Shown here one piece after another: positions 2,913-21,592 of a stretch of 26,751 nucleotides of DNA. Positions within the stretch are counted from its first letter, which is position 1. Each line of letters opens with the position of its first letter. The notes below the pieces were generated by a model, which was given only the letters and a program-made list of their open reading frames with translations, ran no database searches and was not told the DNA's origin. The DNA lies in IMG/VR virus record IMGVR_UViG_3300007640_000186, positions 1 to 26,751 of that record. One strand, 5' to 3'. The stretch comes from a virus. Both the position numbers and the translations under genes were made by a program.

Positions 2913-4625
2913 TTATCCGTCACATGCAAGGCAATCATCGGTTGTTCTTGACCCTAAATCTCCTTTAATTACTGAATCTGTTCTTAGGTAATAAAGTGTT
3001 TTAATACCCAACTTCCAGGCTTCCATATGGACTTGATTTATCCATCTAGGAGAATCAGTAGGGTCAAAAGCAACATTTAAAGATTGAGTTTGATCAATAT
3101 ATTTCTGACGTATTGCTGCCTGTTGAACTAATGCTAATTGATTTATTTCTGGGAATGTTAAGAATATTTCTTTTTCCTCATCTGTTAAAATATCATGAGG
3201 TAGATTAGCAACAGAACCATTATCAGCTAAAATCTGATCCCATATTTTACTTTGGTTTTTACCTTTATCATTTAATAATTTTTCTAATTCAGGATTTTTT
3301 ACAATAAATGTTCCTTTAGCACCATTAAATACATAAACGTTTGCTGGTTGGGGTTCAATACCTGCGGAACATGAGTTGATTCTAGAATTAGATACTGTAG
3401 GGGCGATTGCCATTACGTGGGTATTTCTCATTCCTGTACCCTTACACCATAAAGGTTCTCCATATTCTAAAGCCATTTGACGAGATGCTGCTTCAGCTTT
3501 TTGTCTAATATCACTAAAGATAGTATGAGTCCAAGCTGTAGAAGCTAATGAATTAAATGGTAATCCTTTTTGTTGAAGGAAGGTATGCCATCCCATTACA
3601 CCTAAACCTAATGCTCTACCTTTTTTAGCATGTCTATGAGAACGAATCATTGAATCCTTACCATTAGTTTTTTGGATAAATTCTTCCATTACACCATCTA
3701 AGAAGTAAGTAGCAACTTCAACTACATCTGTATTTTTCCACTCATCATACTTAGCTAAGTTAAGTGAAGACAAACAACAGATAAATGAATGTTCCTCATC
3801 TGTATGTAGTGTAATTTCAGAACAAATATTAGTCATAGAGACATCTAAGTTGTTCATTCTGTATGCTAAAGGATTATCTTTATTAACATTATCCTTAAAC
3901 ATAATGTATGGTTCACCCGTCTCTACACGTGATTTAAGTATTTCTAACCACAATGACATAGCCTCGCTGTCTCGATCTTGTAAGCGCTTCATAAACGCAT
4001 CATCAACAACTACAGCTTGGTGTAGGTTCAAACATTGTCTGTTTGGGTCACCTTTAGGACGACGGATTTGTAAAAATTCTTTAATATCTTTGTGGTTGAT
4101 GTCTAAGTTTACGGATGCTGCTCCTCTACGAACTGAACCTTGGTTGGTAGCAATAATGGTTGAATCATAAATTTTAGCCCAAGGAACTACACCTTCTGAT
4201 TTTCCATTTCCTGTAATGTGTTCTCCTCTTCCTCTAATTCGACTAAGGGATATTCCCACGCCTCCCCCATAACTAGTAAGGCGCATAAGCTCTGCGTTAG
4301 TGAGGCCAATACCACGTACCGAATCCGGAGTATCAATCCCAAAACAACTAATAGGCAAACCCCTGTCAGTACCAGTGTTACTGAGTACAGGAGAAGCAAG
4401 TCCAATCCATCCATTCCAAATATATTTAAAGAATTTATTTTCTAAATCAGGGCGATTTAAACGCATCGCCACAGCGTGAGCTACTCTTCGGTATGCTTTT
4501 TTAGGTGTTTCCCCAGGAAGTAAATACCCTTTTGAAATTGTAGACAATGCTACTTCATCAAAAAAATCAGGGTAATCTTTACCTCTTTCCCACTGGGTAT
4601 AGTCTGCTATTAAATTGTTATCCAT
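2913..4625 (-). CDS. nrdA: Ribonucleoside-diphosphate reductase, class I alpha (catalytic) subunit
   Basis: This 570-residue enzyme reduces ribonucleotides to deoxyribonucleotides in the cytoplasm, together with the NrdB partner encoded 2 bases upstream. Key residues are visible: active-site pair C94 (PISCFG) and C283/C284 (SFICCLSSLNL), the catalytic NICSE motif (N266, C268, E270), the radical-transfer tyrosines Y545/Y546 (TLYYLRT) and the C-terminal redox pair CLACDG (C565, C568). It is shorter than the roughly 760 residues of E. coli NrdA because the N-terminal ATP cone is missing: the sequence starts directly in the helical domain (YTQWERGKDY). It therefore should not be switched off by dATP through that site. 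Phages carry such enzymes to raise dNTP supply. Other minus and plus open frames inside it are shadows. Confidence 0.96.
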   Translation of the reverse strand: MDNNLIADYTQWERGKDYPDFFDEVALSTISKGYLLPGETPKKAYRRVAHAVAMRLNRPDLENKFFKYIWNGWIGLASPVLSNTGTDRGLPISCFGIDTPDSVRGIGLTNAELMRLTSYGGGVGISLSRIRGRGEHITGNGKSEGVVPWAKIYDSTIIATNQGSVRRGAASVNLDINHKDIKEFLQIRRPKGDPNRQCLNLHQAVVVDDAFMKRLQDRDSEAMSLWLEILKSRVETGEPYIMFKDNVNKDNPLAYRMNNLDVSMTNICSEITLHTDEEHSFICCLSSLNLAKYDEWKNTDVVEVATYFLDGVMEEFIQKTNGKDSMIRSHRHAKKGRALGLGVMGWHTFLQQKGLPFNSLASTAWTHTIFSDIRQKAEAASRQMALEYGEPLWCKGTGMRNTHVMAIAPTVSNSRINSCSAGIEPQPANVYVFNGAKGTFIVKNPELEKLLNDKGKNQSKIWDQILADNGSVANLPHDILTDEEKEIFLTFPEINQLALVQQAAIRQKYIDQTQSLNVAFDPTDSPRWINQVHMEAWKLGIKTLYYLRTDSVIKGDLGSRTTDDCLACDG

Positions 4626-4627
4626 AA

Positions 4628-5614
4628 TTAAAAAATGCTTTCATCCCACTGTAAGTGGCCTTTTGAATAGTTAGTTACTCGGTTTGCAAAGAAATCAGTA
4701 TGTTGTTTACCAGCTGATAAAGCATCAAACCATTTCATTCTTTCTACTGCTGTTGGGTCAATATCGGTAATAATTGAATTGTATCCAAGGTCACCTAATT
4801 TAGTATTAACTCTATTTTTAATAAAGTTTTCCAAGTCATATTGAGAACAACCCTCTAAATCTCCTAATGAATAGCACTTTTGAATAAAATCAAGTTCAAG
4901 TTTTAATGATAACAAAGCTGCTTCATTTATTGCTGCCTCAAGTTCTGGGGTTTTAAGTTCAGGGTTTTCTTTAATAAGTGTTCTGAATAACCAACATCCA
5001 GCTTCGGAATGGAGTGATTCATCTCTAATAGACCATTCAACAATTTGCCCAACACCTTTTAGTTTGTTTCTCATCTTAAATGATAACAATACCGCAAATG
5101 AAGAAAATAGGTTTACCCCTTCAGTAAATGCTGAGAATACAGCGAGTGATTTAGCAATCTCATGAAGACTATCTTCACCAGAAAAACTATCTCTAACAGT
5201 AGTAAGAGCTTCAATTTTAGCCATTGTAGCTTCATCTTCCATAAACTCTGCAAAGTTTTCAAGACCAAGTGTTTCATTTAATAATGAATAAGCTTCAGCG
5301 TGAATAGTTTCAAATGCCCCAAAAGTTGTAGCCATCATAATAACTTCTGGTTTACGGAACCATTTTGTTACTAATCCTGACCAGTAATCGTTTACAACTG
5401 TTTCGGTTTGAGCAAATCCCTTAAGGATAGACCCAATAATATTTTTTTCTGTTTCATTTAAATTTGAATTCCAATCATTCAAATCTGACATCATTGGAAC
5501 TTCTGTGTGTAACCAATGTGCCTGTTGTTGTTTAAGCCAATAATCAGCTGCTTCTTGATACTCGAACGGTTTATAGACAATACGTTCCTGCAATAGATTT
5601 TTTTTCTTTGCCAT
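4628..5614 (-). CDS. nrdB: Ribonucleoside-diphosphate reductase, class I beta (radical-generating) subunit
   Basis: The 328-residue protein is the ferritin-like subunit that makes the radical for NrdA. Probable metal ligands are E71 (QTETVV), E102 and H105 (FETIHAEAY), E165 (FTEGVNLF), E199 and H202 (IRDESLH). Tyr109 sits at the place of the radical tyrosine of E. coli (Y122). The first ligand is Glu where E. coli has Asp84, a change seen in some other subclasses (class Ic, and to my memory the dimanganese class Id of flavobacteria). There is no N-terminal ATP cone, unlike some flavobacterial NrdB proteins. The C-terminal tail (QWDESIF) is the usual site for docking to the alpha subunit. The gene order is nrdB then nrdA in transcription, with 2 bases between them. 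Confidence 0.95.
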   Translation of the reverse strand: MAKKKNLLQERIVYKPFEYQEAADYWLKQQQAHWLHTEVPMMSDLNDWNSNLNETEKNIIGSILKGFAQTETVVNDYWSGLVTKWFRKPEVIMMATTFGAFETIHAEAYSLLNETLGLENFAEFMEDEATMAKIEALTTVRDSFSGEDSLHEIAKSLAVFSAFTEGVNLFSSFAVLLSFKMRNKLKGVGQIVEWSIRDESLHSEAGCWLFRTLIKENPELKTPELEAAINEAALLSLKLELDFIQKCYSLGDLEGCSQYDLENFIKNRVNTKLGDLGYNSIITDIDPTAVERMKWFDALSAGKQHTDFFANRVTNYSKGHLQWDESIF

Positions 5615-5634: not shown

Positions 5635-6999
5635 TTAAGAATTTAACTCGAAAAACTTATTTGCCAACATTTTTTTATCAAATGTGTCAAAGCTTTCAAA
5701 ACTTTTAGTTTGGGTTGGTGATTCATCGGATTCGTAATCATCAGCATTGTAATCATGAACTTCAAAATGACCGGTGGATGTATCTGCTTTTACCCCAAAT
5801 GTTAAACCATCCATTCCGTATCTGTTTTTCATAATGTGAAATCTTCCTGTTCCGTTTACTTTGTCTTTTGCTTTTCTTGAAAGAGACATACAGAAGTCGG
5901 TAATCATAATTTTATCATATGAACCGGCAGCCTTATCCCCTTCAATAACATCATCCTTTGCACCTGCACGATTTACTTGAGAAACTGACCAAACAGGCAC
6001 ATTTAATTCTCTAGCAAGTCCTTTAGTGCTTGTATAAATATCATCAATTTCACCTTTACGGTCTGCAGTTCGTTTTCTTGTTGAAAGAAGATCAACATAG
6101 TCAATTATAATTAAATCAGGCTTAACACCTAAGTCAGTTACTTTTCTTATATGAGATTCAATCGTTGAAATAGTGGCTCTTCCTGTAGGAAATTCCTTAA
6201 TAATTAATTCACCTGGAAGTTCAGGAAGGATTTCTTCAATTTTTGCTCTGTTTTTTAAAACTCTATCAACTGGAATATTGGAGAAAAAAGCATCATAACG
6301 ACGACCAACATATTCCTCACCTAATTCTAAAGTATAATGAAGAACATTAAACCCCATTCTCACAGCATACCCTCCTAAGGCAACTAACGACCAAGATTTA
6401 CCACCTCCTGGATTACCAAATATAAGACCAAAATCTCCATTTCCGATACCTCCTTGAAGTATTTCGTTAACCTTTTCCCATGGAGTTGGAATAATAGTTC
6501 TTGAGTCTTCTCTAAAACGAGACTCAATGTCTTTGTTATATTCATGACCTACGTTTTTATCTTGTCCAGCTTTAAGGGCTGATTCTACTAGAAATTTAAT
6601 ACCATCAAAATCACCAGCTTTTAACAAATCTACACTATTAAGAAGTGCTTTTTTTAATTGTTGGTTTTTACAAAACGTTGAGAATTCCTCTTGAACATAT
6701 GCTAAATCTTCATCAGATGCTTGATATGCTTCTCGAAGTTGTTCTTTAATTGAAAGAGCTAATACTTCATTATCAATACGTTTCATTTCAATTTTAAGGA
6801 TATCCATTGAAGGTGTAGTATGATATTTATCATAATACTTTAGGATTTCCTTAATAATCCATTTATGGGCTTGATTATCCCAATACTCCTCACTAATAAT
6901 ATCATGGATATTTGTTAGAAACTCTTTATGAGTTAATAAGGAAGATAGTACTTTAACTTGAAAGTGAGTACCATATTGATTTAATGTTGTTAATGTCAT
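5635..6999 (-). CDS. Replicative DNA helicase, DnaB/T4 gp41-like
   Basis: This 454-residue protein has an N-terminal helical domain (about 1-150) and a RecA-like motor domain: Walker A GNPGGGKS at 195-202, the TLELGEEYVGRRYDA segment (about 223-237), Walker B LIIIDYVDLL at 296-305, then a VWSVSQVNRAGAKD motif (sensor region) and a C-terminal KNRYGMDG segment that supplies the arginine/base-loop region. This is the gp41-type branch of the DnaB family, a ring helicase that unwinds DNA ahead of the fork. No primase gene is in the window, and no primase zinc finger is fused to it. It follows the 5' nuclease gene by a few bases, within a compact replication operon that runs on into nrdB and nrdA. 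Confidence 0.93.
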   Translation of the reverse strand: MTLTTLNQYGTHFQVKVLSSLLTHKEFLTNIHDIISEEYWDNQAHKWIIKEILKYYDKYHTTPSMDILKIEMKRIDNEVLALSIKEQLREAYQASDEDLAYVQEEFSTFCKNQQLKKALLNSVDLLKAGDFDGIKFLVESALKAGQDKNVGHEYNKDIESRFREDSRTIIPTPWEKVNEILQGGIGNGDFGLIFGNPGGGKSWSLVALGGYAVRMGFNVLHYTLELGEEYVGRRYDAFFSNIPVDRVLKNRAKIEEILPELPGELIIKEFPTGRATISTIESHIRKVTDLGVKPDLIIIDYVDLLSTRKRTADRKGEIDDIYTSTKGLARELNVPVWSVSQVNRAGAKDDVIEGDKAAGSYDKIMITDFCMSLSRKAKDKVNGTGRFHIMKNRYGMDGLTFGVKADTSTGHFEVHDYNADDYESDESPTQTKSFESFDTFDKKMLANKFFELNS

Positions 7000-7005: not shown

Positions 7006-8040
7006 TTATTTATTAAAACTGTTTAGCGGGTCAAATATATCTTTGATCCAAAAATCTACATTGCGAATCATTCCTCCGAGTTTATCTTCGTTATAAAACG
7101 CTATGAACTGGTCGGGAATATAATTGATATCTTTAGATTCTACAACCTTATTTAAATAATTTTCATCATTTTTATCAATCATAGGTTTTGATAAATCCAT
7201 GATTTTATAATTTTTCTCTAACGCTTCTATATTCTGAATAATACGAGCGTAAATAACGTTTTCTTTAAATTTAGCTTCACAAATATTATAGATATCATCT
7301 AATGTCATATCTTTTTCACTTAATTCAGGAAATAATTTATAGAGTTTTTTCTCACCTAAACCTTTAACACCCTTTACTTTATCAGAATTATCACCCATTA
7401 AGGTTTTATATAAAATAAAGTTTTTAGGAGACATTTTAAATTTTTCTTTAACAGTATCTGCTGTATAAAATTCTTTCTCCATTGGACGATATACAATTAC
7501 ATTATCATTTATCAATTGTAGAAAATCCTTATCGGAAGAAACAATAAATGCTTTATCTTTAGGGTTTTGTGGTAAGATCGAACTTAAATAAGCAATAATA
7601 TCATCAGCTTCAACTTTATCAAGTGATACAGTTTTAACTGGGAGTGTTTTTAAGTATTGGATTACACGAACCATTTGATCGATTTTAGCATCGTCTTCAT
7701 CATCATGGCTTTCAAATACTTCCCAATTTGTAATTCGTTGTAAATTACGACCTGATTTGTATTCGGGGAGCAGGTTCTTTCTATTATTAGAAGAACCCGC
7801 CCCATCGAATACTACATAAACCTGAGTGGGTTGGATTTGACGTATTAGAGCTCCCAATGATCTAAAAAAACCACCTAGCCCCCCGACGTGAATACCATCA
7901 GGATTGACAGCATTAAGCATGGCAAAGTTTCTAAAAAATAGGTTTAAACCATCAATCATTAAGTATCTCTCTGATTGAGCAGACTCTTGGCCTTGCTCGT
8001 CGAGGTTGTCGAGGAGCTTAAGTAATTCTTTTTTGTTCAT
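7006..8040 (-). CDS. 5'-3' exonuclease / flap endonuclease (PIN-FEN family, T4 RNase H type)
   Basis: I choose ATG 8040 (344 aa): it lies 1 base after the uvsX stop, while the longer form from 8118 would add 26 unusual residues inside uvsX. The metal-binding acidic residues of the family are visible: D30 (LMIDGLNLFFRNF), D79 (VVFDGAGSSNNRK), E144/D146/D147 (DKVEADDIIA), D170/D172 (VSSDKDF) and D217/D220 (MGDNSDKVKGVKG). The last leads into the helix-three-turn-helix DNA-binding motif GVKGLGEKK. Such enzymes remove RNA primers and 5' flaps on the lagging strand. The polymerase of this phage carries no 5' nuclease domain, so this separate protein probably supplies that activity. Confidence 0.92.
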   Translation of the reverse strand: MNKKELLKLLDNLDEQGQESAQSERYLMIDGLNLFFRNFAMLNAVNPDGIHVGGLGGFFRSLGALIRQIQPTQVYVVFDGAGSSNNRKNLLPEYKSGRNLQRITNWEVFESHDDEDDAKIDQMVRVIQYLKTLPVKTVSLDKVEADDIIAYLSSILPQNPKDKAFIVSSDKDFLQLINDNVIVYRPMEKEFYTADTVKEKFKMSPKNFILYKTLMGDNSDKVKGVKGLGEKKLYKLFPELSEKDMTLDDIYNICEAKFKENVIYARIIQNIEALEKNYKIMDLSKPMIDKNDENYLNKVVESKDINYIPDQFIAFYNEDKLGGMIRNVDFWIKDIFDPLNSFNK

Positions 8041-8041
8041 C

Positions 8042-9124
8042 TTATTCCGGTTCGTTTTCGAATGAAGTAATATCAGTGTAAGCTTGATCCTCTTCAGCAA
8101 TGATAAAATCACCACCACCTAAAATCTTTTTCCACGCATCTCCGTGTTCATCTTTATAGGCTTTAAGTGCTTTATCATCATCAAGGATAAAACCGTGGGG
8201 TGTCATTACAATTTTACCCCTTGTAGTAACTCCGTTAATATGATTTTTATCAATTTGTAAGTTAGTACGTTTAGCAAATTCTACCTGCTTACCATCTTTG
8301 ATTGCTTTAATCTTAGATGTTCCAGCTGACATCACGTTACCAAATGTAACAACAAATGTTGAATCAAACCACATAGCGTAACCCCCTTTATTCATTAACT
8401 TAGGTTGACCCATTGGTGATTCCGCTTTTAACGTCCACACTTTATTAATACACACAAGGGTATTAGTGTATGGGCTACTCTCCTTACGAGACATTACAAT
8501 ACGCTGATTAACGTTATTACCAAATTGGGTAGACATAGCACCAGCATTCCATTCATTATTGTTTTTGTTTGATTTAATAGACATCTCACAAGGTACAGAG
8601 CCGATTGAATCCCAACAAAACAATAAATCGTAAGGTAAATTACCTTTTTTCTGTTCATCAAGTAAATCTAAGATAAAACCAGCTACATCTTCAATTGAAT
8701 TTATAGTTTCTCTATCTATATAAATAAAACTACCATTATAATCTAGAATTTCACCTGTTTCTTCGTCTACTACCTCATTAACTTCAAGTCCCATTTGCAC
8801 GGCATGTTCCCAGTTCCATTTCATCTCAGTGATAATGAATACTGGTAGAATGCCTCGCTTCTGGGCTGATACAGCTGCTTCAATCATAGCAGTAGTTTTA
8901 CCTGTATCAGAATGCCCACGAAGCAGCACAATATGACCTTGAGGAATACCTGGTACCGAAGTAATTTCTTGGTATGCTTCCGAAAGTGGAATCCAGGTTT
9001 GCTCTTTAAATTTAGCTTTTGATGTAAGTCCCTTCTTATTCTTAAAGCTATCTAAATTGAAATTAGCTTTAATTTCAGAGGAGACTGCCTCCGATAGAGA
9101 CTTTTTTGTTTTTCCTCTTGGCAT
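8042..9124 (-). CDS. uvsX: RecA-like recombinase, T4 UvsX type
   Basis: This 360-residue protein has the RecA/RAD51 core: Walker A GHSDTGKT at 70-77, a catalytic Glu region (FIITEMKWNWEHA, about 97-109) and Walker B DLLFCWDSIGSVP at 166-178, followed by the QRIVMSRKE and TLVCINKVW strands. The short charged N-terminus (MPRGKTKKSL) and the lack of a RecA C-terminal domain fit phage UvsX proteins. It assembles on single-stranded DNA for strand exchange, recombination-dependent replication and repair. It lies between the SSB gene and the 5' nuclease gene, close to the T4-like gene logic. The mediator UvsY is not evident in the window; the 156-aa gene at 10033-10503 is not a convincing match. Confidence 0.9.
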   Translation of the reverse strand: MPRGKTKKSLSEAVSSEIKANFNLDSFKNKKGLTSKAKFKEQTWIPLSEAYQEITSVPGIPQGHIVLLRGHSDTGKTTAMIEAAVSAQKRGILPVFIITEMKWNWEHAVQMGLEVNEVVDEETGEILDYNGSFIYIDRETINSIEDVAGFILDLLDEQKKGNLPYDLLFCWDSIGSVPCEMSIKSNKNNNEWNAGAMSTQFGNNVNQRIVMSRKESSPYTNTLVCINKVWTLKAESPMGQPKLMNKGGYAMWFDSTFVVTFGNVMSAGTSKIKAIKDGKQVEFAKRTNLQIDKNHINGVTTRGKIVMTPHGFILDDDKALKAYKDEHGDAWKKILGGGDFIIAEEDQAYTDITSFENEPE

Positions 9125-9135: not shown

Positions 9136-9978
9136 TTAAAATGGTAAATCGTCGTCTTCTTCTTCAAAAAGTTTATCAAACTTATCTGCTTTGGTTTCTT
9201 TAACAGCAGGCTTAGTAGACAGACTATAATTTGATTTTGGTGTTTCTTTTACATCTGAATCAAATCCCTCAGCTGGTTCTGAGACGATAGAATCTTCTTC
9301 ATCATCACCCTCAGGAGACAACCATTCCTGCAATGCTGTTTTCATATCATCATATGATAATGGTTTGAAAACTTTTTTAGGATCTGGTTGATCTTCTAAC
9401 CATTTTTCACTTTGACCAGCATCATCAGATAGTGATGAGGTTTTCATAGAAGGACCAATTGTAGTTCGGTTGTAAGGTGTACCTGTAGATTCAGGACCTA
9501 CTGTGTTTAATTTAATATCACGACCATTTAAAATGTCTGTAAAATCACCTACTTCCTCATCAGCAGCTAATTGCAAAAATGCCTCGTAAATTTCTTTACC
9601 AAACTGCCACAATTTAACTCCTTCGGCCTCTTCACCACGAACAATTACAGGAGCAAAGATACGAGTTTTAGCATCAAGCTTTTTAGCTAACCGCCAATTA
9701 TCTTTGTCATTACTTTGACGAAGTTGTTTTGCAAACTCGATAATAGGATCCTTCTCTCCCCAGTTTGCAGGTGAGGCCATTACTTTTTTACTACCAATTC
9801 CGTAATAAAATTTCATTTCTGTAAAAGGATTGTCTTTATTGTACTTAAAAGGTACAACACGAATAGTCTGTTTACCAACAGACGGTTTCCAGAACAATTG
9901 TTTTCCGCCACCTGAGCTCTGGTTGTTTGCAGCGTTTTGCATCTTATTAAGACGCTCTTTGATTACGTTCAAATCCAT
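9136..9978 (-). CDS. Single-stranded DNA-binding protein, T4 gp32-like
   Basis: The 280-residue protein has a Lys/Asn-rich N-terminus, then FWKPSVGKQTIRVVPFKYN and FYYGIG segments typical of gp32-like OB folds, and an acidic C-terminal tail ending EEEDDDLPF, the usual docking tail of SSB proteins. There is no cysteine anywhere in it, so the zinc finger of T4 gp32 is absent. It should coat single-stranded DNA and recruit the helicase, polymerase and UvsX. It stands before uvsX with 11 bases between. The 54-base leader upstream is AT-rich and contains a possible host-type promoter, so it may be expressed on its own as well as by read-through. Confidence 0.88.
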   Translation of the reverse strand: MDLNVIKERLNKMQNAANNQSSGGGKQLFWKPSVGKQTIRVVPFKYNKDNPFTEMKFYYGIGSKKVMASPANWGEKDPIIEFAKQLRQSNDKDNWRLAKKLDAKTRIFAPVIVRGEEAEGVKLWQFGKEIYEAFLQLAADEEVGDFTDILNGRDIKLNTVGPESTGTPYNRTTIGPSMKTSSLSDDAGQSEKWLEDQPDPKKVFKPLSYDDMKTALQEWLSPEGDDEEDSIVSEPAEGFDSDVKETPKSNYSLSTKPAVKETKADKFDKLFEEEDDDLPF

Positions 9979-10032: not shown

Positions 10033-10503
10033 TTAAAGTTCAATAATTTTATAAATCTTTGTATTCAATTGTTTTAACTCATTATGCTGAGTGAGAAGGA
10101 TACAGTTTCTATAATGTTGCCAATCTATTCTATACCGAGGATCTACCACCCCACCATTTAATCGTTTAATTAACTCATTTAGGGCATTAATAGTGTATAA
10201 GGTATTAGAATCTTTTTTACGATGTACTAAAATAGTATTTTCAGGAATGTCACTTACATTACCCTGATCTACGTTATAAGTAATAACGTACTCGTTGTTG
10301 CTCTTAACATGCAAAACAAACATTTTGTTGTACATGATTGTATATTTTGATGATAAATCATCAATCAACCCATCTAACTCCTCTAAAGGTGTGAAGGTGC
10401 AAAATAACTTGTTGTTCAAATCTCCAATGTTTAAAGGATTGTCAAAATCGTATTGTCCTTTATACATATGGTCATATTTAGGTAAAGTCGTAAGTGTCTC
10501 CAT
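10033..10503 (-). CDS. Hypothetical protein, coupled to the polymerase gene
   Basis: This 156-residue protein overlaps the 3' end of the polymerase gene by 26 bases if it starts at ATG 10503; ATG 10467, just past the polymerase stop, is a second possible start. It has no signal peptide, membrane helix or Cys-based metal site. The pattern is mixed alpha/beta, with strand-rich segments (FVLHVKSNNEYVITYNV, NCILLTQHNELKQL) and one helix (YTINALNELIKRLNG). The overlap with the polymerase and the position before the SSB suggest a replication or regulatory role, but I recognise no family and propose none. Confidence 0.7.
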   Translation of the reverse strand: METLTTLPKYDHMYKGQYDFDNPLNIGDLNNKLFCTFTPLEELDGLIDDLSSKYTIMYNKMFVLHVKSNNEYVITYNVDQGNVSDIPENTILVHRKKDSNTLYTINALNELIKRLNGGVVDPRYRIDWQHYRNCILLTQHNELKQLNTKIYKIIEL

Positions 10504-11761
10504 AACTGATTTTTGTGGTTAATTTAAAACCTTTAATAATTTCTTGTATTTCTTTTAATGTTTGTTTCTCTTCCTTAGCAAAATCAAATAAAAACGCATC
10601 ATACGTGTATAATACGAGTTTAGTCTTTTTCCCTCTTAAGGTTTTTAATATTTCCCACAATATATGAATATTAGTTGATGTTTCCAAATTTTGGAGTACG
10701 TAATTCAACAACTTTTGAGGCTTCATATCTTGCGTGTCTCCTTTCCTAAGTATATACTTTGATTGAGGCATTTCAAGATATCCCCCATATTGAAAAGTAT
10801 CCCACAAATCATCAGTATATGCCTCTACTTTTTTAAAAAATTCCAGATTTTTATATTGGTCAAATACTCCCCCATATAATTGTTTAAACGTCAGTTCCTT
10901 AGCTTTTTTATAATCCACCCCATACATTTCAGCAAAGGCAGCATGGATGTCTTTATCACCGAAATCATAACCTATAAGCTTAGCCAACAGAGTAGGATGA
11001 TAAGCACTAATGTCTAATTCAACAAGTAAATCATTACGTGGGATAAAACATTGTCTCGAACCATTTTCCTTATTAAGTGCGGCGTAATTTACCCCATTAA
11101 ACGTGTTTGAAGGACGGGTGGTAAGTGTTTTTAAATTATATTGGGTGTACACGTACTCTCCTTCAATAGGATGGAAGTGCTGTTCAAACAATTCCTTATT
11201 TACTTTTAACCCGTTTTGCTCAATAGCGGAAAATACAATTGAACTACGTTTATTGAACCATTGGCAATAAAAATCATTACACTTAAGGTTGAATGGGTTT
11301 ATATCCTCAAAAACCTTCTCACAATATTCATAGTGTTTTACTATCGGAATAATCCTGTTTATATCGTGTTTTGATGAATGTGTTTGGTAAAAATGTTTAT
11401 GTGCTTGTGTTAATTCTGGTATATACGTATGGTGGGTGGGTTGTATGTCGAAAAGAGCTTTAAGTGGGAAATATTGTAATATTGATTTTTTATTTCTTAC
11501 ATATATTTTCTCTATTCCATTTAGTGTCTGTCTTATCTCGTCTATATCCAATGGTATAGCTTCACTATGGTCAATACATAGCATATAACCCTTACGTGCG
11601 TTTACGGGGCGTACATACAATAATGATACGTTATCGATTGTCGGGTGGGTGTTGAAATTATAAGGAATTACCTCTAAAAACACTTCTTTAAAACCACGAT
11701 AATCAAACGCTTTTAATTGTTCGCTATCTTCTATTAACCAAAACATAGTTTGAATATACAA
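10478..11761 (-). CDS. Compact family A DNA polymerase with degenerate exonuclease region
   Basis: The C-terminal half carries the family A polymerase motifs. A TTRPSNTF segment with GVNYAALN and QCFIPRND (about 214-244) matches the region before motif A. Motif A is ELDISAYHPTLLA (D250). DIHAAFAEMYG (271-281) leads into motif B, YKKAKELTFKQLYGG (K288, F292, Y296, equal to E. coli K758, F762, Y766). NYVLQNLE (353-360) precedes motif C, YTYDAFLF (D388, equal to D882). Motif A has His255 where Pol I has the steric-gate Glu710, and motif C has Tyr/Ala around the Asp in place of His/Glu. Residues about 6-110 resemble the Pol I 3'-5' exonuclease order of strands but lack its DxE. At 427 aa it is far smaller than Pol I. 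Start could also be ATG 11746. Another polymerase elsewhere in the genome is possible. Confidence 0.8.
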   Translation of the reverse strand: MYIQTMFWLIEDSEQLKAFDYRGFKEVFLEVIPYNFNTHPTIDNVSLLYVRPVNARKGYMLCIDHSEAIPLDIDEIRQTLNGIEKIYVRNKKSILQYFPLKALFDIQPTHHTYIPELTQAHKHFYQTHSSKHDINRIIPIVKHYEYCEKVFEDINPFNLKCNDFYCQWFNKRSSIVFSAIEQNGLKVNKELFEQHFHPIEGEYVYTQYNLKTLTTRPSNTFNGVNYAALNKENGSRQCFIPRNDLLVELDISAYHPTLLAKLIGYDFGDKDIHAAFAEMYGVDYKKAKELTFKQLYGGVFDQYKNLEFFKKVEAYTDDLWDTFQYGGYLEMPQSKYILRKGDTQDMKPQKLLNYVLQNLETSTNIHILWEILKTLRGKKTKLVLYTYDAFLFDFAKEEKQTLKEIQEIIKGFKLTTKISYGDTYDFT

Positions 11762-12424: not shown

Positions 12425-15085
12425 TTACTGGTTAAAATTTATAGTATTATTAGGTGTTGTAAGTACTGGAGATTTAGGGTCATCTACTGATGTTATAGTT
12501 AATGAATCTATTTTAGTTTTCCAACCACTAGTATTAATGCTATGATTTATTCCCTTACATAAAAATGATAAAGTATCAGGATAGGATTTAGGAAGTATTT
12601 CTGTAGTAATATAAAATTTTTCATATATTCTTAACCCAGAAAAACCATCCATATCTAAATTCATACTAAATGGAATAAAACCTTGAGTACTAGGTTTAGG
12701 AGATTCAGGACTATTTATTTGAGCCGTAAACTGTTGTACGGCTGCATTTTGAGATCTAGCTGTAGATATTACTTCTCCTGAGGGGGATTTTTTATTGGTA
12801 TAAAAATCCTTAATTATATTTCCGTTCTTAAGGAGAGATTCTCTAGTTTTAATAAATGTACCTATTGGATCTTTTGATTCTGATTTTGATTGTTGGATTG
12901 CTTTTTTACTTAATTTACTAGGAGTAACACTATCAATTAAACCTACATTCCATCTAGAAAATGATGTTGAGTTTGCTAAATCAGATTCACTTCTAGATTG
13001 AGCTCCAATTGAAATCATAGTAGCAAATTGGTTAGATAAAGTAGTACTAATACCAACATTTGTTACAAATGAACCATTTTGTTGAGTTGGTTTCCAACCG
13101 TTAACATTAAATAATGTTCTATCTTCTACAGGAACTACAGTTTTAGTAGCTACTTTAGGGTCTAAAGGAACATCATCTCTAATAATTATTTGATTATTAT
13201 CGTGATCATAGGTTACTGAAAATTTATTAATGCTACCTAATGATTCTTGAATTCCATAAAGTAACTGTTCTAAAAATCTTAAAAGAGGTACAGCATTATT
13301 TTGAGTACACTGTTTTAATGTAGAACCAATATAGTGAAGATTTACAGGAATATCTAATAAGTTCCCAACAAAAGGACTGCCTGTATCTCTAAATTCAGGA
13401 CCAATTACTTCTTCAAAATACGTTACACCTTCAAAGGTAAAAGGAATAATACACACATTAGGATCTGCTGAAAATTGTTCGGGTTGAGTATAGCAATAAA
13501 TTTCAGTATCATCAAATGTAATAATAGATTGAGGATCATTTGGTTTTTCAGTTTCACCCGTTTGTTCTCCACCATTATAAACTAAAAGATTTCCTTCAAT
13601 ATAGTCTAATAATCTTCTTAAAGTTATATATTGGAATGGAGCGTTTTGGCTTAATCGAGTTACTTGACCCTTAACCTCCCCACTACTACCATCAATAAGA
13701 TCTCTAGTAACTAAAGGTTGAATCATTATTAAATCAGCATTAGAGCCTTCACTAGGATCTGATTCTTGATCGAGGGTACTTAAAACTTTAATAGTTGGTG
13801 ATGAACTATTATTAGTAGTTTTTAATTCTGTTCCTAATTTACTAATATTTGTTTTTAACCAGTTGTATTGTTTATATAAAAACCCATTAAAATCAGTTCT
13901 ATCTTTATTTGCCAATAAAACATCCGGACCTTCATCTTCTGGAGATAAACTATCTGCTGGACGTTTTAAGGTAAATTTATTCATTGTTGAAGGATATTCA
14001 TCCCTATACTTTGCAAACTCTCTTACAGTAGCTGTAGCACTGGTGAAACCGCCATCACTTAGATCATCAATTTCATTCCAATATTCTCTATATTGTTTTT
14101 TATTAGAATCAGGAACTCTTCTAGTGTATGACCCTTTATCATCTTTAAGATTAAAATAATAATAAGTTGGGTTGTTTGAGGTATTGTTTTGTTTCTTTTG
14201 AGGAACATTTTCTGGGGGTTCAACTCTATTAATAGTTAGAGATTCAATAATATCCCCAGTAGATATTGCTTTTACTTCAATATCATAGGAACCATCACTA
14301 TTATAATTCCAAACAAAGTTAGTGATTTTACCATAAAACCCATCATAATTTCCTTCGCTTCCTGATTCGGTTGAATTGCCTTCTTCTACTATTCTACCAT
14401 CTCCACGTTCTTTAACAATGGCTTTAAGAATAGAATCTTGAGTTAAATCTCCAGAATTTCCATCTAAAAATTTATTTAATAAGTTAAATGCTTCTGTATT
14501 AAAATTAGCAGTAGTGTATTGGGGGTTTTCTGGGGTGCCTTTAAAATATGTTGTGTGTCCCCATTCTAATAATAAAGTATATCCAGGACGCATAAATAAA
14601 GCATCTATAATAGCAAATTGTTCTCTACTATATGCTTTAAGTTTAAATGATGCCTTTCTTAAAGAACCTCGGTTATATGTAGTAATATCTAAACTTTCAA
14701 CACCCGGCATAGGGACTAAACCTCTTTCAGATGTTGAACCAAATCCATAAGCATTATTATTAATACTGCTATATGCTTGGTTTAAAACTCCACTTTTTTG
14801 AGTAAATGTTTGATTTCCGTCTTCTGTAGTTTCTGTAGAAGTGGTACCATTAAATAGTACATATTCTTTGGCTAACTTACCACCAACATAACTTTCACTA
14901 CCTGTTAATTCTTTACTTTTTTCTTCGTCTATTTTTACAGCCGATATTGCTCTAATCCAGGCAGTATTATTAGTTTGCCATGCCAGAACATTAGCTGGTC
15001 TATTTTGTAAACCTAATAATTGCTGTCGGAGATTAACCTGATTAGCTGCCCACTTTCTAGGGTTATTTCCTATAATATTTCCCAT
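12425..15085 (-). CDS. Large baseplate/hub-like structural protein
   Basis: The product is 886 residues. After a polar N-terminus it has a segment of baseplate type (about 125-175: SLRKASFKLKAYSREQFAIIDALFMRPGY, then LLLEWGHT) and later FYGKITNFVWNYNSDGSYDIEVKAIS (about 250-275), a beta-rich pattern common in hub or spike-base proteins of contractile tails. A long Ser/Asn/Thr-rich central part and a C-terminal GFIPFSMNLDMDGFSGLRIYEKF domain follow. No lysozyme or protease motif is visible. It sits between the gp53-like gene and the 214-aa gene in the baseplate block. I infer a hub or wedge component; the exact T4 counterpart (for example gp27) cannot be fixed by eye. Confidence 0.65.
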   Translation of the reverse strand: MGNIIGNNPRKWAANQVNLRQQLLGLQNRPANVLAWQTNNTAWIRAISAVKIDEEKSKELTGSESYVGGKLAKEYVLFNGTTSTETTEDGNQTFTQKSGVLNQAYSSINNNAYGFGSTSERGLVPMPGVESLDITTYNRGSLRKASFKLKAYSREQFAIIDALFMRPGYTLLLEWGHTTYFKGTPENPQYTTANFNTEAFNLLNKFLDGNSGDLTQDSILKAIVKERGDGRIVEEGNSTESGSEGNYDGFYGKITNFVWNYNSDGSYDIEVKAISTGDIIESLTINRVEPPENVPQKKQNNTSNNPTYYYFNLKDDKGSYTRRVPDSNKKQYREYWNEIDDLSDGGFTSATATVREFAKYRDEYPSTMNKFTLKRPADSLSPEDEGPDVLLANKDRTDFNGFLYKQYNWLKTNISKLGTELKTTNNSSSPTIKVLSTLDQESDPSEGSNADLIMIQPLVTRDLIDGSSGEVKGQVTRLSQNAPFQYITLRRLLDYIEGNLLVYNGGEQTGETEKPNDPQSIITFDDTEIYCYTQPEQFSADPNVCIIPFTFEGVTYFEEVIGPEFRDTGSPFVGNLLDIPVNLHYIGSTLKQCTQNNAVPLLRFLEQLLYGIQESLGSINKFSVTYDHDNNQIIIRDDVPLDPKVATKTVVPVEDRTLFNVNGWKPTQQNGSFVTNVGISTTLSNQFATMISIGAQSRSESDLANSTSFSRWNVGLIDSVTPSKLSKKAIQQSKSESKDPIGTFIKTRESLLKNGNIIKDFYTNKKSPSGEVISTARSQNAAVQQFTAQINSPESPKPSTQGFIPFSMNLDMDGFSGLRIYEKFYITTEILPKSYPDTLSFLCKGINHSINTSGWKTKIDSLTITSVDDPKSPVLTTPNNTINFNQ

Positions 15086-15088
15086 AGT

Positions 15089-15394
15089 TTAAAACCTGTT
15101 TATATTTGAATAGCTTTGTAAAATAGATGTTATGTTAAGAGGAATTCGAATTTGAGTTCCTACTGGTGGGAAAATTGAGGTTGGGGGGATTAATGGGTTA
15201 GCCGCAGCTATAACCCACCATAAAGTACTATCATTATAATATTGATTAGCTAATAAATCATACCTATCTCTTTCATCTGTAATTACGTAAATGTCAGTTT
15301 CAGACAAAGGGATTGTTGGGTAAAAGTTCGTTTTATAGTAACGATTACCTTTTGGAGTTCTTAATATTTGTATGTTTGAATATCTATTAGCCAT
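15089..15394 (-). CDS. Baseplate wedge protein, T4 gp53-like (LysM-like fold)
   Basis: This 101-residue protein has the typical order of the gp53/LysM-like group: SETDIYVITDERDRYDLLANQYYNDSTLWWVIAAAN (about 32-67), then PPVGTQIRIP (about 78-87). The double Trp helix followed by the Pro-Gly strand is the recognisable core. In T4, gp53 helps join wedges around the hub; LysM-like domains of this sort also occur at the base of other contractile tails. It is shorter than T4 gp53, keeping little beyond the LysM-like part. The gene lies 3 bases before the large baseplate protein and 5 bases after the 443-aa gene. Confidence 0.75.
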   Translation of the reverse strand: MANRYSNIQILRTPKGNRYYKTNFYPTIPLSETDIYVITDERDRYDLLANQYYNDSTLWWVIAAANPLIPPTSIFPPVGTQIRIPLNITSILQSYSNINRF

Positions 15395-15399
15395 TATTT

Positions 15400-16731
15400 C
15401 TAAATTCCTGTAAGTGTAGCATCATCTGTAGGGATTATAAGACTACCTGAAGATGGAGAAATATCATATCCTATAAATTTAGATCCTTTTTGAGGTATAA
15501 AATTATGAATAGGAGCAAAACTAAATCCACTTACTTGTAATCCTTGAGGTAATTGAGCTATACCATCTTCTGTTGGTAAAGGATTACCGTCATTTCCTTT
15601 AGCAATTTCCCAAGGAGATTCTTCAAACCCCGCAAGAGACATTCCTTTAAGAACTCCAGGCACATCATTTAAATAATCACCTACAGTTAGATAAATTAAA
15701 TTACCTCTCATAAATCCTTCTTCACTATAATCCGGGGCACAAAGCGAGGCAAGATATGTTAACTTTTCATATAGAGGCTTTTGCTCTTGTCTTGATTGAG
15801 CCATTACTCTAAATCCTAAACTAATATCTCTATTAAATCCTCCATATTTGTAGAAGCTTTCACCTCTACCTACATACTTTGTATCACTCCATTGTGCTGA
15901 ATACCCATCACTAAATGAATCTATAAAAGCTCTAAATGTAATCCAAGTTCTTATAGATGGATCATCATTATTTACTACTGAGATTCTAAATTTAATAAAA
16001 TCACTATTAGCTACATCGTCTGCTACTGTAGATGAGTTGTATAGAGGTTTCATTGCTAACATATCAGCTGTAGAAGTTAATTGCTTTCCAGGTTTACTTT
16101 TATCATAAACAACGTTGAAATATTCTTTACGATTTCTCCTAATAGATGAACCAATTGGAAAAGATACACCTGTTCTAAAATCTGGGAGGGTTCCTTTAAG
16201 AAGATTATTAGTACCTGTGGCAACTTGACCCATACCATAAACATCAGTTTCTCCGCCATTTAAATTTTGACCTCCTCTTATATCAGTAGGTCCTGGGAAT
16301 TGTTGAGAAAAAAATGAAAGAATGTCAGGGTTAATAAAAGCTGGAATGTGGCCAAATCCTACACCGTTAGCTACTGCTTGTAGTGGTATAGTTAAAGGGT
16401 TCCATACTTGAAAAGGATCTGCTAATAAACCATTTGCTATTTGCTTAGCATTAAAAGATAAACCTACATTGGTTTTTGTGTAAAGTTTAAATAATCTCTC
16501 TACATCATCAATAGCTGCACCTACTCTTAAAAACCCCCCTCTAACAAACCAATCATTACTAGATGAAAAACCAGTGATTGATGTTGGGTCTTCGTCTTCG
16601 TTTGGTATGGAGGGTCCTAAATCTTTAAAAACAGCAAAAGCCCCTCTAGAGTTAGCTGATGAGCCACCTCCAGGGCGATCATTACCGTATCTTAAAGATT
16701 TAAGATCAGTTTTTAAGTCTATTAGAGGCAT
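15400..16731 (-). CDS. Baseplate/tail-tube-junction protein (putative, gp48/gp54 region)
   Basis: The product is 443 residues. The N-terminal half is Gly/Ser/Pro-rich. The C-terminal half has a strong beta-rich domain (about 240-380): KFRISVVNNDDPSIRTWITFRAFIDSF, the WSDTKYVGRGESFYKYGGFNR segment, MAQSRQEQKPLYEKLTYLAS, then YLTVGDYLNDVPGVLKGM. This resembles tube-like/baseplate-tube proteins that cap the tail tube. It follows the tape measure and a 60-aa gene, where T4-type genomes place gp48 and gp54, so I infer a tube-initiating baseplate role. The family assignment is inference from pattern and order. Open frames inside it (for example 16077-16259) are shadows. Confidence 0.6.
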   Translation of the reverse strand: MPLIDLKTDLKSLRYGNDRPGGGSSANSRGAFAVFKDLGPSIPNEDEDPTSITGFSSSNDWFVRGGFLRVGAAIDDVERLFKLYTKTNVGLSFNAKQIANGLLADPFQVWNPLTIPLQAVANGVGFGHIPAFINPDILSFFSQQFPGPTDIRGGQNLNGGETDVYGMGQVATGTNNLLKGTLPDFRTGVSFPIGSSIRRNRKEYFNVVYDKSKPGKQLTSTADMLAMKPLYNSSTVADDVANSDFIKFRISVVNNDDPSIRTWITFRAFIDSFSDGYSAQWSDTKYVGRGESFYKYGGFNRDISLGFRVMAQSRQEQKPLYEKLTYLASLCAPDYSEEGFMRGNLIYLTVGDYLNDVPGVLKGMSLAGFEESPWEIAKGNDGNPLPTEDGIAQLPQGLQVSGFSFAPIHNFIPQKGSKFIGYDISPSSGSLIIPTDDATLTGI

Positions 16732-16737
16732 AAACTA

Positions 16738-16920
16738 TTATTTAGGTGGGTTATCTAAATACTTAGATGGAGTAGCACCATCATCAATATCTAATTGAGA
16801 CTTTTTTAAAGAATCAGGATTTAATGGGATAGTTAAGTTTGGAGCATTAACTCCTTGTTGTGGAGTTTCACCTTTAAGGCTTAACTGGGATTTGTTTAAA
16901 CTGTCTACTAATGAACTCAT
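16738..16920 (-). CDS. 60-residue virion-region protein with an internal repeat
   Basis: The protein is small, polar and probably disordered. It contains two similar stretches, SLNKSQLSLKGETPQ (about 8-22) and SLKKSQLDIDDGATPSK (about 37-53), so it looks like a duplicated short linear motif. No Cys, membrane helix or signal peptide is present. It is supported as a gene by an AT-rich promoter-like element 27 bases upstream and by tight spacing (6 bases) to the next gene. It probably acts as a small structural or assembly peptide in tail or baseplate assembly, but the function is not known. Confidence 0.6.
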   Translation of the reverse strand: MSSLVDSLNKSQLSLKGETPQQGVNAPNLTIPLNPDSLKKSQLDIDDGATPSKYLDNPPK

Positions 16921-16947
16921 GATTATTAATTTTAAATTGTGGTTTTG

Positions 16948-16958
16948 TTATAAATATT
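16948..16958 (-). promoter_or_regulatory. Recurring AT-rich promoter-like element before the 60-aa gene
   Basis: The plus strand reads TTATAAATATT; in the transcribed direction AATATTTATAA followed by an A-rich run. The same 11-mer occurs upstream of the tube and sheath genes. Here it sits between the tape measure stop and the 16920 start, 27 bases from the start. Probably a late promoter core; inferred. Confidence 0.45.
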
Positions 16959-16961
16959 GTA

Positions 16962-19886
16962 TTATTGCATTCTGTAATTTCCTGCTACCATAGCAGTTCC
17001 TACTTTTTGTCCATCTAATATTATGGTACCTCCTTTTTCGACAGCAGCTACTAATCTTTCAAGTAATTGAATAGTTTTACCATTATCTCCACCACCTGTT
17101 AGGTTAGTACCACCCATTACAATATCATCTTTACGGAATTTTTGAACTGTCCCGTTTTGCATTATAAAATCTTCGGCAACATCATTTCCTCCTAAAGCTT
17201 TTGCTAGTGGGGGTGCTAATGCTTTTTGGATTGCTGGGATAGAACCTATATAATCTCCAATTAACCCCCCGGCAATACCACCTAAAACAGTTCCAGGACC
17301 AGGTAATACAGATCCTAAAACAGATCCTAAAGCCCCACCTATTATACTAGCACCTAGTGGGATAATTTGTTGTGCCTTTTCAAGATTTGTACCTTTACCC
17401 GCTAAAATTGATGCTAATGATCCAACATTAATTATAGCACCAATTAAACCACCTTTAACAGCTTTGCCTACAAATTTACCGGCTTTACCAATTAAACCTG
17501 ATTTTAATGCTTTCATTGGGTTTACTTTACTTGCTACAGATTTTACACCTTGGACCCCTTTCGATACAGTTTTACCTATACTAGAATTAGCTATTGATTT
17601 ACCTATATTAGATATACCTTTTTTCATACGGCTAAAAATACTACCTGAAGATTTAGGGGCTTTAGTAAATTTACCAGTTGATGGGTCTCTATATCTTTTT
17701 GATTTTGGGTCGAATTTAGGTTTTGTTCCTTGATTCTTTTTAAAAAGATTTTTTATGGGGTCAGTAATAGAATCCGCGGCACCTGCTAATCGTACATAAA
17801 GAGCATTTGATGCTGATGATCCATCATTTTTCAAACCAAACATACTCATTAAACCTTTAGCACCTTTAATTACTAAGGCACCTCCAGCAACCCAACCCAT
17901 AGCTTTCATTAACCATGGATGTTCTTTAACAAAGTTTGAAATTGATGTAGCTGCAGATTTAATTCCGTCAGCGAATTTTTGTGCTCTATCGGGAAGGGAA
18001 TCTAAAAATGCTGTTCCTGCTGGGCCTGTAGCCCATTCTACCATAGGTTGAAGGACATTATCATTAATTAGATTCGATACTATAGATTGAATTTTAGTCC
18101 AAATTTCTTGAAGTTTAGTTACTAGAGGTTCTAATGACTTATAATACTTCATATTTGCCTCTTGGCTAGCTCTTTCAATATTTGCGTGTTTTTCAGCTAA
18201 TGAAACTTGAGATGACATAGCAGCTATACCATCTTGCTGACCTTCTACTAAATCACCATTAATAGACTTACTACCTTCTTGGGCATCTAACATACCCGCT
18301 AATTCACCTCTAGATAATCCAACAGATTTAGCAAATGCTTCTTGTTGAATTACGTTCATATTTTGGAATTCCTCAATAGAACCTAACTGGTTGATAATTT
18401 CATCCTGTAAAGCTGCTGTATCTCCACGTAAAGCTGCTTCTCTTGCTTTTTCAAGATTTAATTGTTTACCTGTAAGTAATTCAGCCTCCATTTCGGCTGC
18501 AATAGAATCTTCAAAGTTAAGTAGACTTCGACCTATGTCTTCCATCTTACTCATTTCAATACCTAAAGATTTTGCTTTCGCTACAGATTCTACTAGGAGT
18601 TTTGGTTGGTCTCTAAATTGAAGTCTAATAGTACTAGAAACATTTGCAACATCATTTAATAAATTCTTTTGACTAAATGCATATTTGTTAGTCTTAATTG
18701 TATCCAATGATACTTGGGCCATATTTTTAACTAATGTCCCAGCATCTTGTCCTGATAGTTTGGCGAATTTTTGGAATTTAGCTAAACTTTCAGCAGATAC
18801 ACCTGCAAGTGTATTTAATTTAACAAAGGTCTTTACAGTGTTTGCTGTTAACTTTTCTGTTGAACCCATTGCTTGGTAAATAGAACTAATAGATTCCTTA
18901 CCTGCTGCTATTGTGGGTCCAAACTTAGCACCTGCTGCTGCTAGTTGGTTAGCTGCTCCTTGAGCTAAACCTAAGGTTCGAGATATGTTTACATTTTCTT
19001 CACTTATTCGTACTGCAGCTTGTTTACCTTCTTCATATTTCTTTTTTAAGAAACCAAAAGCAGATGTTGCCCCTTTTATGGCCATTGTAGCTAAAATAAG
19101 TGGGTCTGTAAGATTTCTTAGAATTTCTTTACCTATTACTTTAAAGGCAGAGCCCATGGCTTTAACTTTAGTTAATAAACCACCAGCTTTTTTACCACCG
19201 TCTGTAAGACGTGATGCTGTGCTTTTTGCGGCCTCACTAGCATCTTCAAATACGGTAGCCATGTCACCCATTCCTATCTTATTTAAAAACCCTTGAATAC
19301 CTTTTAAAGCAACACCTGTAAGACCTGTAGCTCTTTCAATATTTCTTTGTTGCTTGGCCATTAAGTTAATAGTATCCAGTTGTCTGTGGTAGGCTGAAGT
19401 ATTATCTTTAATTTGACCTTCTATTTCGTTTAGAGTATCTAATTCATCTTGTGTAGCCGAGCCAGCTGCTTTTTTAGCTGCTAGCATTTTATAACTTAAT
19501 TGAAGATTTTCAAATTCAATTTTAGTTTTATTAGCTAAAGACCTTAAATCTTTTGAAGAAAGTTCATTTATCCCTTTTTGAGATAGTCTAACCTTATCAG
19601 AAATATCTCTTAATTTATTAAGAGAACCAATTCCTAATTTTTGGGCTTGGTTTGTTTTTGTAACTTCTTCTAAAACATTTCTCCACTGTGTTGATAAACC
19701 TTCTACAGATTCATCTAAATCATTTACAATTTCACGGATGCTTTCTAATTCATCCTTAACAGCCATTACTTGGGAAGAATCAGCATCAATTTTAAGGGGA
19801 GATTTATTTACCTCCGCACGGAGACGATTAAGTTCCGCAAGATCTTTATTGAATTGTTTTAAATCTGCTCCAGTTAATTTGGCCAT
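16962..19886 (-). CDS. Tail tape measure protein
   Basis: This 974-residue protein is the ruler for tail length and sits inside the tail tube. The N-terminal part (about 1-190) is charged and helical, with heptad-like coiled-coil stretches. The central part is Ala/Lys/Gln-rich helix. About 655-880 holds hydrophobic segments (MKAMGWVAGGALVIKGAKGLM; GLIGAIINVGSLASILAG; IIPLGASIIGGALGSVLGSVLPG) that resemble the membrane-active segments of other tape measures. The end TIILDGQKVGTAMVAGNYRMQ is the typical C-terminal signature of tape measure proteins. It follows the chaperone pair, the usual order. By the common rule of about 0.15 nm per residue, the tail would be near 145 nm. No lysozyme or peptidase motif is visible. 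Confidence 0.9.
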   Translation of the reverse strand: MAKLTGADLKQFNKDLAELNRLRAEVNKSPLKIDADSSQVMAVKDELESIREIVNDLDESVEGLSTQWRNVLEEVTKTNQAQKLGIGSLNKLRDISDKVRLSQKGINELSSKDLRSLANKTKIEFENLQLSYKMLAAKKAAGSATQDELDTLNEIEGQIKDNTSAYHRQLDTINLMAKQQRNIERATGLTGVALKGIQGFLNKIGMGDMATVFEDASEAAKSTASRLTDGGKKAGGLLTKVKAMGSAFKVIGKEILRNLTDPLILATMAIKGATSAFGFLKKKYEEGKQAAVRISEENVNISRTLGLAQGAANQLAAAGAKFGPTIAAGKESISSIYQAMGSTEKLTANTVKTFVKLNTLAGVSAESLAKFQKFAKLSGQDAGTLVKNMAQVSLDTIKTNKYAFSQKNLLNDVANVSSTIRLQFRDQPKLLVESVAKAKSLGIEMSKMEDIGRSLLNFEDSIAAEMEAELLTGKQLNLEKAREAALRGDTAALQDEIINQLGSIEEFQNMNVIQQEAFAKSVGLSRGELAGMLDAQEGSKSINGDLVEGQQDGIAAMSSQVSLAEKHANIERASQEANMKYYKSLEPLVTKLQEIWTKIQSIVSNLINDNVLQPMVEWATGPAGTAFLDSLPDRAQKFADGIKSAATSISNFVKEHPWLMKAMGWVAGGALVIKGAKGLMSMFGLKNDGSSASNALYVRLAGAADSITDPIKNLFKKNQGTKPKFDPKSKRYRDPSTGKFTKAPKSSGSIFSRMKKGISNIGKSIANSSIGKTVSKGVQGVKSVASKVNPMKALKSGLIGKAGKFVGKAVKGGLIGAIINVGSLASILAGKGTNLEKAQQIIPLGASIIGGALGSVLGSVLPGPGTVLGGIAGGLIGDYIGSIPAIQKALAPPLAKALGGNDVAEDFIMQNGTVQKFRKDDIVMGGTNLTGGGDNGKTIQLLERLVAAVEKGGTIILDGQKVGTAMVAGNYRMQ

Positions 19887-19906
19887 AATGACATATAGTT
19901 ATATGC

Positions 19907-19916
19907 TATAAATATT
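19907..19916 (-). promoter_or_regulatory. Recurring AT-rich promoter-like element before the tape measure gene
   Basis: The plus strand reads TATAAATATT, 20 bases upstream of the tape measure start at 19886. It directly follows the hairpin at 19918-19943. A short palindrome (19892-19905, CATATAGTTATATG) lies between it and the start and could be an operator or part of the leader. Confidence 0.42.
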
Positions 19917-19917
19917 A

Positions 19918-19943
19918 AAAGGCATCATTTCTTTGATGCCTTT
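19918..19943 (-). terminator. Hairpin overlapping the end of the gp51-like gene
   Basis: A perfect 10-bp stem (19918-19927 with 19934-19943, AAAGGCATCA/TGATGCCTTT) has a 6-base loop. Read leftward it runs into TTTTAATATTTAT, a broken T tract, so it could be a partial terminator. It overlaps the last codons of the gp51-like gene and stands just before the tape measure promoter-like element. Confidence 0.6.
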
Positions 19944-20260
19944 GTAACATAGCTAGGAACATTAACTTCTTTTTTAGCTACTGCACCTGCTGCCCTCATA
20001 TTTGCTATAGATTCATCTACTGTACTTTCTTGGGAAGATTGATTTTCTTCTTTATAATGGTTTGCTATGGCATTCCATGTAAACTTTCTAAGCCAGATAG
20101 GCATGTTATAGATAGTTTCCCAATCATACCCTCCCTTACCATGAAATACAATTTCGTGAATTTGAGTAAATATACTATTTCTAAAAATTAATGCTTCTTT
20201 AGGCGTCAGGGAAAAAAAAGTTGACTCCAATGGGCACCTCCACTTCCCTGTCTTCTCCAT
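19925..20260 (-). CDS. Tail assembly chaperone, downstream part (T4 gp51-like position)
   Basis: The frame encodes a helical segment LTPKEALIFRNSIFTQIHEIVFHGKGGYDWETIYNMPIWLRKFTWNAIANHYKEE followed by a variable tail. The MPIWLRKFTW core is typical of small proteins next to gp26 in T4-like phages. The frame overlaps the 3' end of the gp26-like gene by about 60 bases in the +1 frame. ATG 20260 would start it in the middle of that gene with residues of poor quality (MEKTGKWRCPLEST). The conserved part begins only after the run of eight T at 20212-20219. It may therefore be made as the end of a gp26-gp51 fusion after a +1 frameshift, like lambda gpG-gpT. Independent translation from ATG 20260 is the alternative. 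Confidence 0.7.
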   Translation of the reverse strand: MEKTGKWRCPLESTFFSLTPKEALIFRNSIFTQIHEIVFHGKGGYDWETIYNMPIWLRKFTWNAIANHYKEENQSSQESTVDESIANMRAAGAVAKKEVNVPSYVTKASKK

Positions 20261-20978: not shown

Positions 20979-21010
20979 AATTTTTATTTAAAATAACTTT
21001 ATTTATCGTG

Positions 21011-21020: not shown

Positions 21021-21030
21021 AAAATAAGAA

Positions 21031-21054: not shown

Positions 21055-21079
21055 CCTTAAAGAAATCGCAAAATTTTTC

Positions 21080-21568: not shown

Positions 21569-21592
21569 TTTGCTATATATTATTTTATTTTA

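Follow-up and report, generated by a model that had tools for sequence, protein, structure and literature searches.

A compact divPolA1 family A DNA polymerase, probably an accessory enzyme, encoded with recombination and replication genes in an aquatic T4-like phage

Introduction

The divPolA1 family of DNA polymerases was described by Yutin et al. (2024, Virol J 21:200, PMC11348598) from 14 genomes, 155-190 kb in size, with gp001 of Flavobacterium phage immuto as its founder. In the passages of that paper on the family, divPolA1 has a truncated thumb and an inactivated exonuclease, retains the palm residues, and lies in a conserved replication neighborhood, while a regular family A, B or C polymerase is encoded elsewhere in the genome. 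Because the replication neighborhood surrounds divPolA1 and not the regular polymerase, the authors argued that divPolA1 is involved in replication, and the function of the regular polymerases was called less obvious. The paper also describes divPolA2 of barbaviruses, likewise a thumbless, exonuclease-less extra family A enzyme beside a family B polymerase, which by that description differs from divPolA1 in having an unrelated N-terminal globular domain and a variable gene neighborhood.

In Rhodothermus phage RM378, a far-T4 phage, the 5′ exonuclease has a gene of its own and the helicase is DnaB-like, as in the DNA analysed here, but the polymerase is a split family B enzyme, and both divPolA1 and the small protein that accompanies it below, ORF156, are absent. 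Because of its split family B polymerase, RM378 was considered and rejected as an earlier example of a far-T4 phage with a family A enzyme.

Here we analysed a stretch of 26,751 bases (the window), which is the entire IMG/VR record IMGVR_UViG_3300007640_000186 and is probably a piece of a larger phage genome. An earlier note on its sequence had pointed to a compact, exonuclease-degenerate family A polymerase among T4-like replication genes, and had offered two interpretations: a T4-like fork that uses the small enzyme, or an enzyme set aside for a special task, for example the filling of gaps.

Results

The window encodes a predicted divPolA1 polymerase

The open reading frame reported earlier is present at 10478-11761 on the minus strand, with 427 codons and a TTG start. 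Homologues begin with MFW or MYW, and the matching start in the divPolA1 gene, the ATG at 11746, is favored for this reason; the gene is thus probably 10478-11746 (422 amino acids), with the TTG at 11761 likely unused. Residues are numbered here from this ATG, which subtracts five from the numbers in the earlier note. The gene and its parts are as follows:

10478-11746, minus strand, divPolA1 gene, compact family A DNA polymerase, 422 amino acids, ATG start
11432-11746, minus strand, shortened exonuclease-like domain without DxE, residues 1-105
11114-11221, minus strand, site of the missing thumb, residues 176-211 (35 versus 128 residues in Pol I)
10997-11014, minus strand, motif A, residues 245-250 (DISAYH), with catalytic D245 and H250 in place of Glu710
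10871-10900, minus strand, motif B/O-helix, residues 283-292 (KELTFKQLYG)
10583-10609, minus strand, motif C, residues 380-388 (YTYDAFLFD), with catalytic D383

A Pfam search with the window polymerase alone gave no meaningful match, and among PHROGs it matched only PHROG 17 (DNA polymerase; E=3.4e-5). The protein is 36.5% identical to immuto gp001 over 98% of its length (E=3e-73). Immuto gp001 itself scores 555 bits against the divPolA1 profile and lies above the cut-off of Pfam DNA_pol_A (42.7 versus 34.3 bits), a family matched by 27 of the 88 homologues collected. A profile of these 88 homologues was aligned by hhalign to E. coli Pol I (E=1.2e-5, residues 207-412 with 663-912), pairing D245, H250, K283, F287, Y291, Q352 and D383 with Pol I D705, E710, K758, F762, Y766, Q849 and D882, respectively; R211 is the equivalent of R668. 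The AlphaFold2 model (pLDDT 92.7, pTM 0.90) had as its top Foldseek structures Klenow, Bst, apicoplast and mycobacterial Pol I, with E values down to 9e-17 and TM scores of about 0.6-0.7 by query length. By profile alignment and predicted fold, the protein is a family A polymerase beyond chance. Family B identity was considered, as DISAYHPT in motif A resembles DxxSLYPS, and was ruled out by the spacing of motif B, the fold and hhalign, which returned no alignment between the 88-homologue profile and one family B polymerase. The family A motifs recognized in the earlier note therefore align with those of Pol I both in homologues and by hhalign, and its proposal withstood the structure prediction that it had asked for, in which Pol I is the best fold.

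D245, K283, Y291 and D383 are invariant in the 88 homologues, as are all metal- and nucleotide-binding residues, and the enzyme is probably catalytically active, judging from this conservation. Two departures from Pol I had also been seen in the earlier note and prove to be family traits: histidine occupies the steric-gate Glu710 position in 88/88 homologues (H250), and motif C follows the pattern Y-D-[AS], with tyrosine for His881 in 87/88 and alanine or serine for Glu883. Ratios of dN/dS between the window polymerase and three relatives were 0.07-0.14, a rough estimate given dS values above 1, and indicate that the protein is under purifying selection.

Homology, palm residues, thumb, exonuclease and the replication genes downstream together identify the predicted protein as a divPolA1. 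It resembles immuto divPolA1 in each of these features, and a regular polymerase is encoded elsewhere in immuto's genome. The family has at least 591 related stretches in IMG/VR and is present in Flavobacteriaceae-associated contigs. One divPolA1, 43% identical to the window's (JAIOYD010000025.1, 7902-9182), comes from a Rickettsiaceae bin, whereas the bins of others are Flavobacteriales; its contig may have been misbinned, or the host range may be broader.

The thumb is essentially absent and the exonuclease is degenerate

Compared with E. coli Pol I, palm and O-helix residues of divPolA1 correspond one to one, but the enzyme is reduced around them: motifs A, B and C of a canonical Pol I were found, and its thumb and DxE exonuclease were not. 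The fingers are shorter, as the earlier note had measured: D245 and D383 are 138 residues apart (135-144 in the family) versus 177 in E. coli Pol I, and the lost residues come from both sides of the O-helix. A bigger change, overlooked at that time, concerns the thumb, which in Pol I sits between an IERNG-like element and R668 in the Klenow structure. From E176 in the corresponding element to R211 there are 35 residues (23-43 in the family) versus 128 in Pol I, so that the region is about 93 residues shorter, and the AlphaFold model shows one short helix there. Immuto gp199 and T7 gp5, both with a full thumb, have long spacing at this position. By spacing and model, the thumb is thus essentially absent from divPolA1.

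The N-terminal domain is shortened, and in the model its strands and helices follow one another much as in an exonuclease. A conserved DxE was sought across the homologues and none was found, which agrees with the earlier reading of a degenerate 3′-5′ exonuclease that has lost its acidic residues. Three residues of this domain (H34, H60 and K87) are invariant in the 88 homologues, and this suggests that the dead exonuclease-like domain may have been given another use.

divPolA1 is followed by ORF156 and a conserved set of replication genes

Downstream of the polymerase gene, the following genes were assigned on the minus strand:

10033-10503, minus strand, ORF156, 156 amino acids, candidate partner, sharing 26 bases with the 3′ end of the polymerase gene
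9136-9978, minus strand, gp32-like single-strand DNA-binding protein
8042-9124, minus strand, UvsX/RecA-like recombinase
7006-8118, minus strand, 5′-3′ exonuclease of the Pol I N-terminal type, with an internal ATG at 8040 as its likely start
5635-6999, minus strand, gp41/DnaB-like replicative helicase
4628-5614, minus strand, ribonucleotide reductase small subunit (NrdB)
2913-4625, minus strand, ribonucleotide reductase large subunit (NrdA)

The order divPolA1-ORF156-gp32-UvsX-5′ exonuclease-gp41 is kept in all loci that were long enough, 56/56 in the window's clade (gp41 itself being seen in 54 of these) and 35/35 in the immuto clade. In the mel clade, ORF156 (mel334) also directly follows the polymerase, and two extra genes then precede gp32. 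The operon is immediately preceded by myovirus tail genes (12425-23336), and the window end (2-415) encodes an endolysin-like protein that is truncated and has a peptidoglycan-binding domain. The tail genes include:

21618-23336, tail sheath
21080-21568, tail tube
20199-20978, baseplate hub-like protein
15089-15394, baseplate wedge-like protein

The linkage of ORF156 to the polymerase had been overlooked in the earlier note. Among 50,697 phage records, ORF156 and the polymerase were found in exactly the same six, and ORF156 was present in 14/14 divPolA1 genomes searched. It is also more conserved than the polymerase, with 57.6% versus 36.5% identity to immuto and 39.5% versus 30.3% to Mel-JY01. 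Searches of ORF156 against Pfam, PHROGs and Foldseek gave nothing usable, and its model has a pLDDT of 68. Co-occurrence, gene overlap and conservation are consistent with ORF156 being a polymerase partner that probably helps to hold divPolA1 on DNA.

In seven marine loci (L335, L344, L346, L369, L373, L399 and L411), an ORF of 550-670 amino acids is located directly upstream of ORF156, apparently after the polymerase. At first sight these short loci have ORF156 without the polymerase. However, L399 shows the end of the polymerase beyond the 550-670 amino acid ORF; in the other six the contig or stored locus ends at that ORF, before any polymerase gene could be seen.

Relatives encode a canonical polymerase elsewhere

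Among related records that carry divPolA1, a further, canonical polymerase was found in 20/22 with a length of 100 kb or more, and in all 13 of 150 kb or more; three of the marine records (G038-G040) appear near-identical and are not independent. Where examined, the 3′-5′ exonuclease domains of these polymerases are intact. The second polymerase in the immuto clade (gp199 in immuto) is a full-length, exonuclease-positive family A enzyme of about 777 amino acids, and immuto, with its two family A polymerases, is also annotated with a 7-deazaguanine DNA-modification set (DpdA, QueC/D/E, FolE and QueF; L030, 34089-34883 and nearby). The second enzyme belongs to family B in Mel-JY01, LR756508, the mel clade and one marine clade.

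Within the window's own clade (>50% identity), contigs of 158, 113, 62 and 36 kb encode a family B polymerase that resembles gp43 and has an exonuclease domain; in three of the four it is split into an exonuclease/palm protein of 556-580 amino acids and a protein of 310-319 amino acids with DTDS. The clade thus differs from immuto in its family B enzyme, often split, in place of a full-length family A enzyme; other differences are within the range of the family. Split pairs of an exonuclease/palm ORF and a DTDS ORF were observed at L133, L135/L138, L136/L140 and L325/L326. The LR756508 family B polymerase is likewise in two separate pieces, and that of RM378 is split at a different place than in these relatives, between exonuclease and polymerase.

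In two related contigs, 120 and 114 kb long, a search for families A, B and C gave the compact enzyme alone; both contigs may be incomplete. The family C search covered 12 contigs, among them these two, the ones of at least 100 kb without A and B, and found none; a scan with the LR756508 protein as query gave no match. No second polymerase was seen within the window, a fragment of 26.7 kb that is too short to show one. By analogy with relatives in its own clade, in which the gp43-like family B enzyme that the earlier note proposed to look for was found, we infer that the window's phage carries a family B polymerase elsewhere in its genome.

Discussion

The same anatomy, and its occurrence "in addition to a regular DNAP", was reached independently here and in the passages of PMC11348598 on divPolA1. 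The invariant histidine, the shortened fingers, the linkage to ORF156, the size of the family and the Flavobacteriaceae-associated contigs go beyond those passages.

The most probable role of divPolA1, in our assessment, is that of an accessory, non-proofreading polymerase of low processivity for gap filling or recombination-linked synthesis, in a phage whose genome is copied by another, proofreading polymerase. The role is drawn from gene context; that the enzyme has low processivity is a prediction, and so is any preference for gap filling over recombination or the reverse. Because its thumb is absent, the enzyme would bind duplex DNA weakly and probably synthesize short, non-proofread patches on gp32-coated DNA. 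The 5′ nuclease would take out RNA primers and divPolA1 would fill the resulting gaps, the two acting like a Pol I divided into two genes. With UvsX and gp32, divPolA1 could also extend or patch recombination intermediates, while the separate proofreading polymerase, putatively of family B in the window's clade, would copy the genome. Of the two interpretations offered in the earlier note, the second, a special task like the filling of gaps, is the better fit and is preferred here; a T4-like fork served by the small family A enzyme is disfavored, as relatives keep a canonical polymerase elsewhere, either family B or exonuclease-positive family A.

Use of divPolA1 as the main replicative polymerase, with the regular polymerase doing another job, would nonetheless account for its place in the replication operon, whereas the regular polymerase lies in a mixed neighborhood (beside groES/groEL in immuto), and it accords with the view in the passages cited from PMC11348598 that the function of the regular polymerases is less obvious. 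The compact enzyme has neither thumb nor proofreading, however, and every record of at least 150 kb retains a canonical polymerase, with an intact exonuclease where examined, which makes this role improbable. A serious rival to gap filling or recombination is translesion synthesis, in which an open active site would copy a damaged template, for example one damaged by UV, and then return it to the main polymerase. Small fingers, a missing thumb, the loss of proofreading and the proximity of UvsX and gp32 would all suit such an enzyme, and family A polymerases that bypass lesions exist, as described for Entamoeba in passages of PMC2919377. Nothing in the sequence is specific to lesion bypass, though, and the fixed link with the 5′ nuclease and helicase suits primer replacement equally, so that we regard translesion synthesis as rather unlikely, while still taking it seriously.

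A further proposal is that divPolA1 has given up DNA synthesis and would now make primers or RNA, or serve the recombination complex as a structural scaffold. Family A polymerases share their superfamily with the T7-type RNA polymerases, all members of the divPolA1 family have histidine for Glu710, and motif C is without its usual histidine and glutamate. A kinship with RNA polymerases has moreover been raised for divPolA2, in the passages of PMC11348598 on that enzyme. A scaffold would not account for the invariance of every residue that binds metal or nucleotide, the DnaG-type primase of immuto argues against primer making, and the best fold matches are DNA polymerases. We therefore consider a role outside DNA synthesis very unlikely.

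Within the preferred accessory role, a more specific and tentative possibility is that divPolA1 works as a polymerase only in complex with ORF156, which would substitute for the lost thumb or act as a clamp. Such a two-protein enzyme would be dedicated to filling gaps or to synthesis linked with recombination, whatever the type of main replicase beside it. The linkage of the two genes offers a concrete hypothesis on how a thumbless enzyme may hold DNA, and the combination of an invariant histidine at the steric gate with a missing thumb makes divPolA1 a good test of the minimal needs of a family A polymerase. Its role is testable in a culturable member of the group, Flavobacterium phage immuto. 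A large group of aquatic T4-like phages would keep an extra, non-proofreading family A polymerase alongside their genes for recombination, irrespective of the family of the polymerase that replicates the genome.
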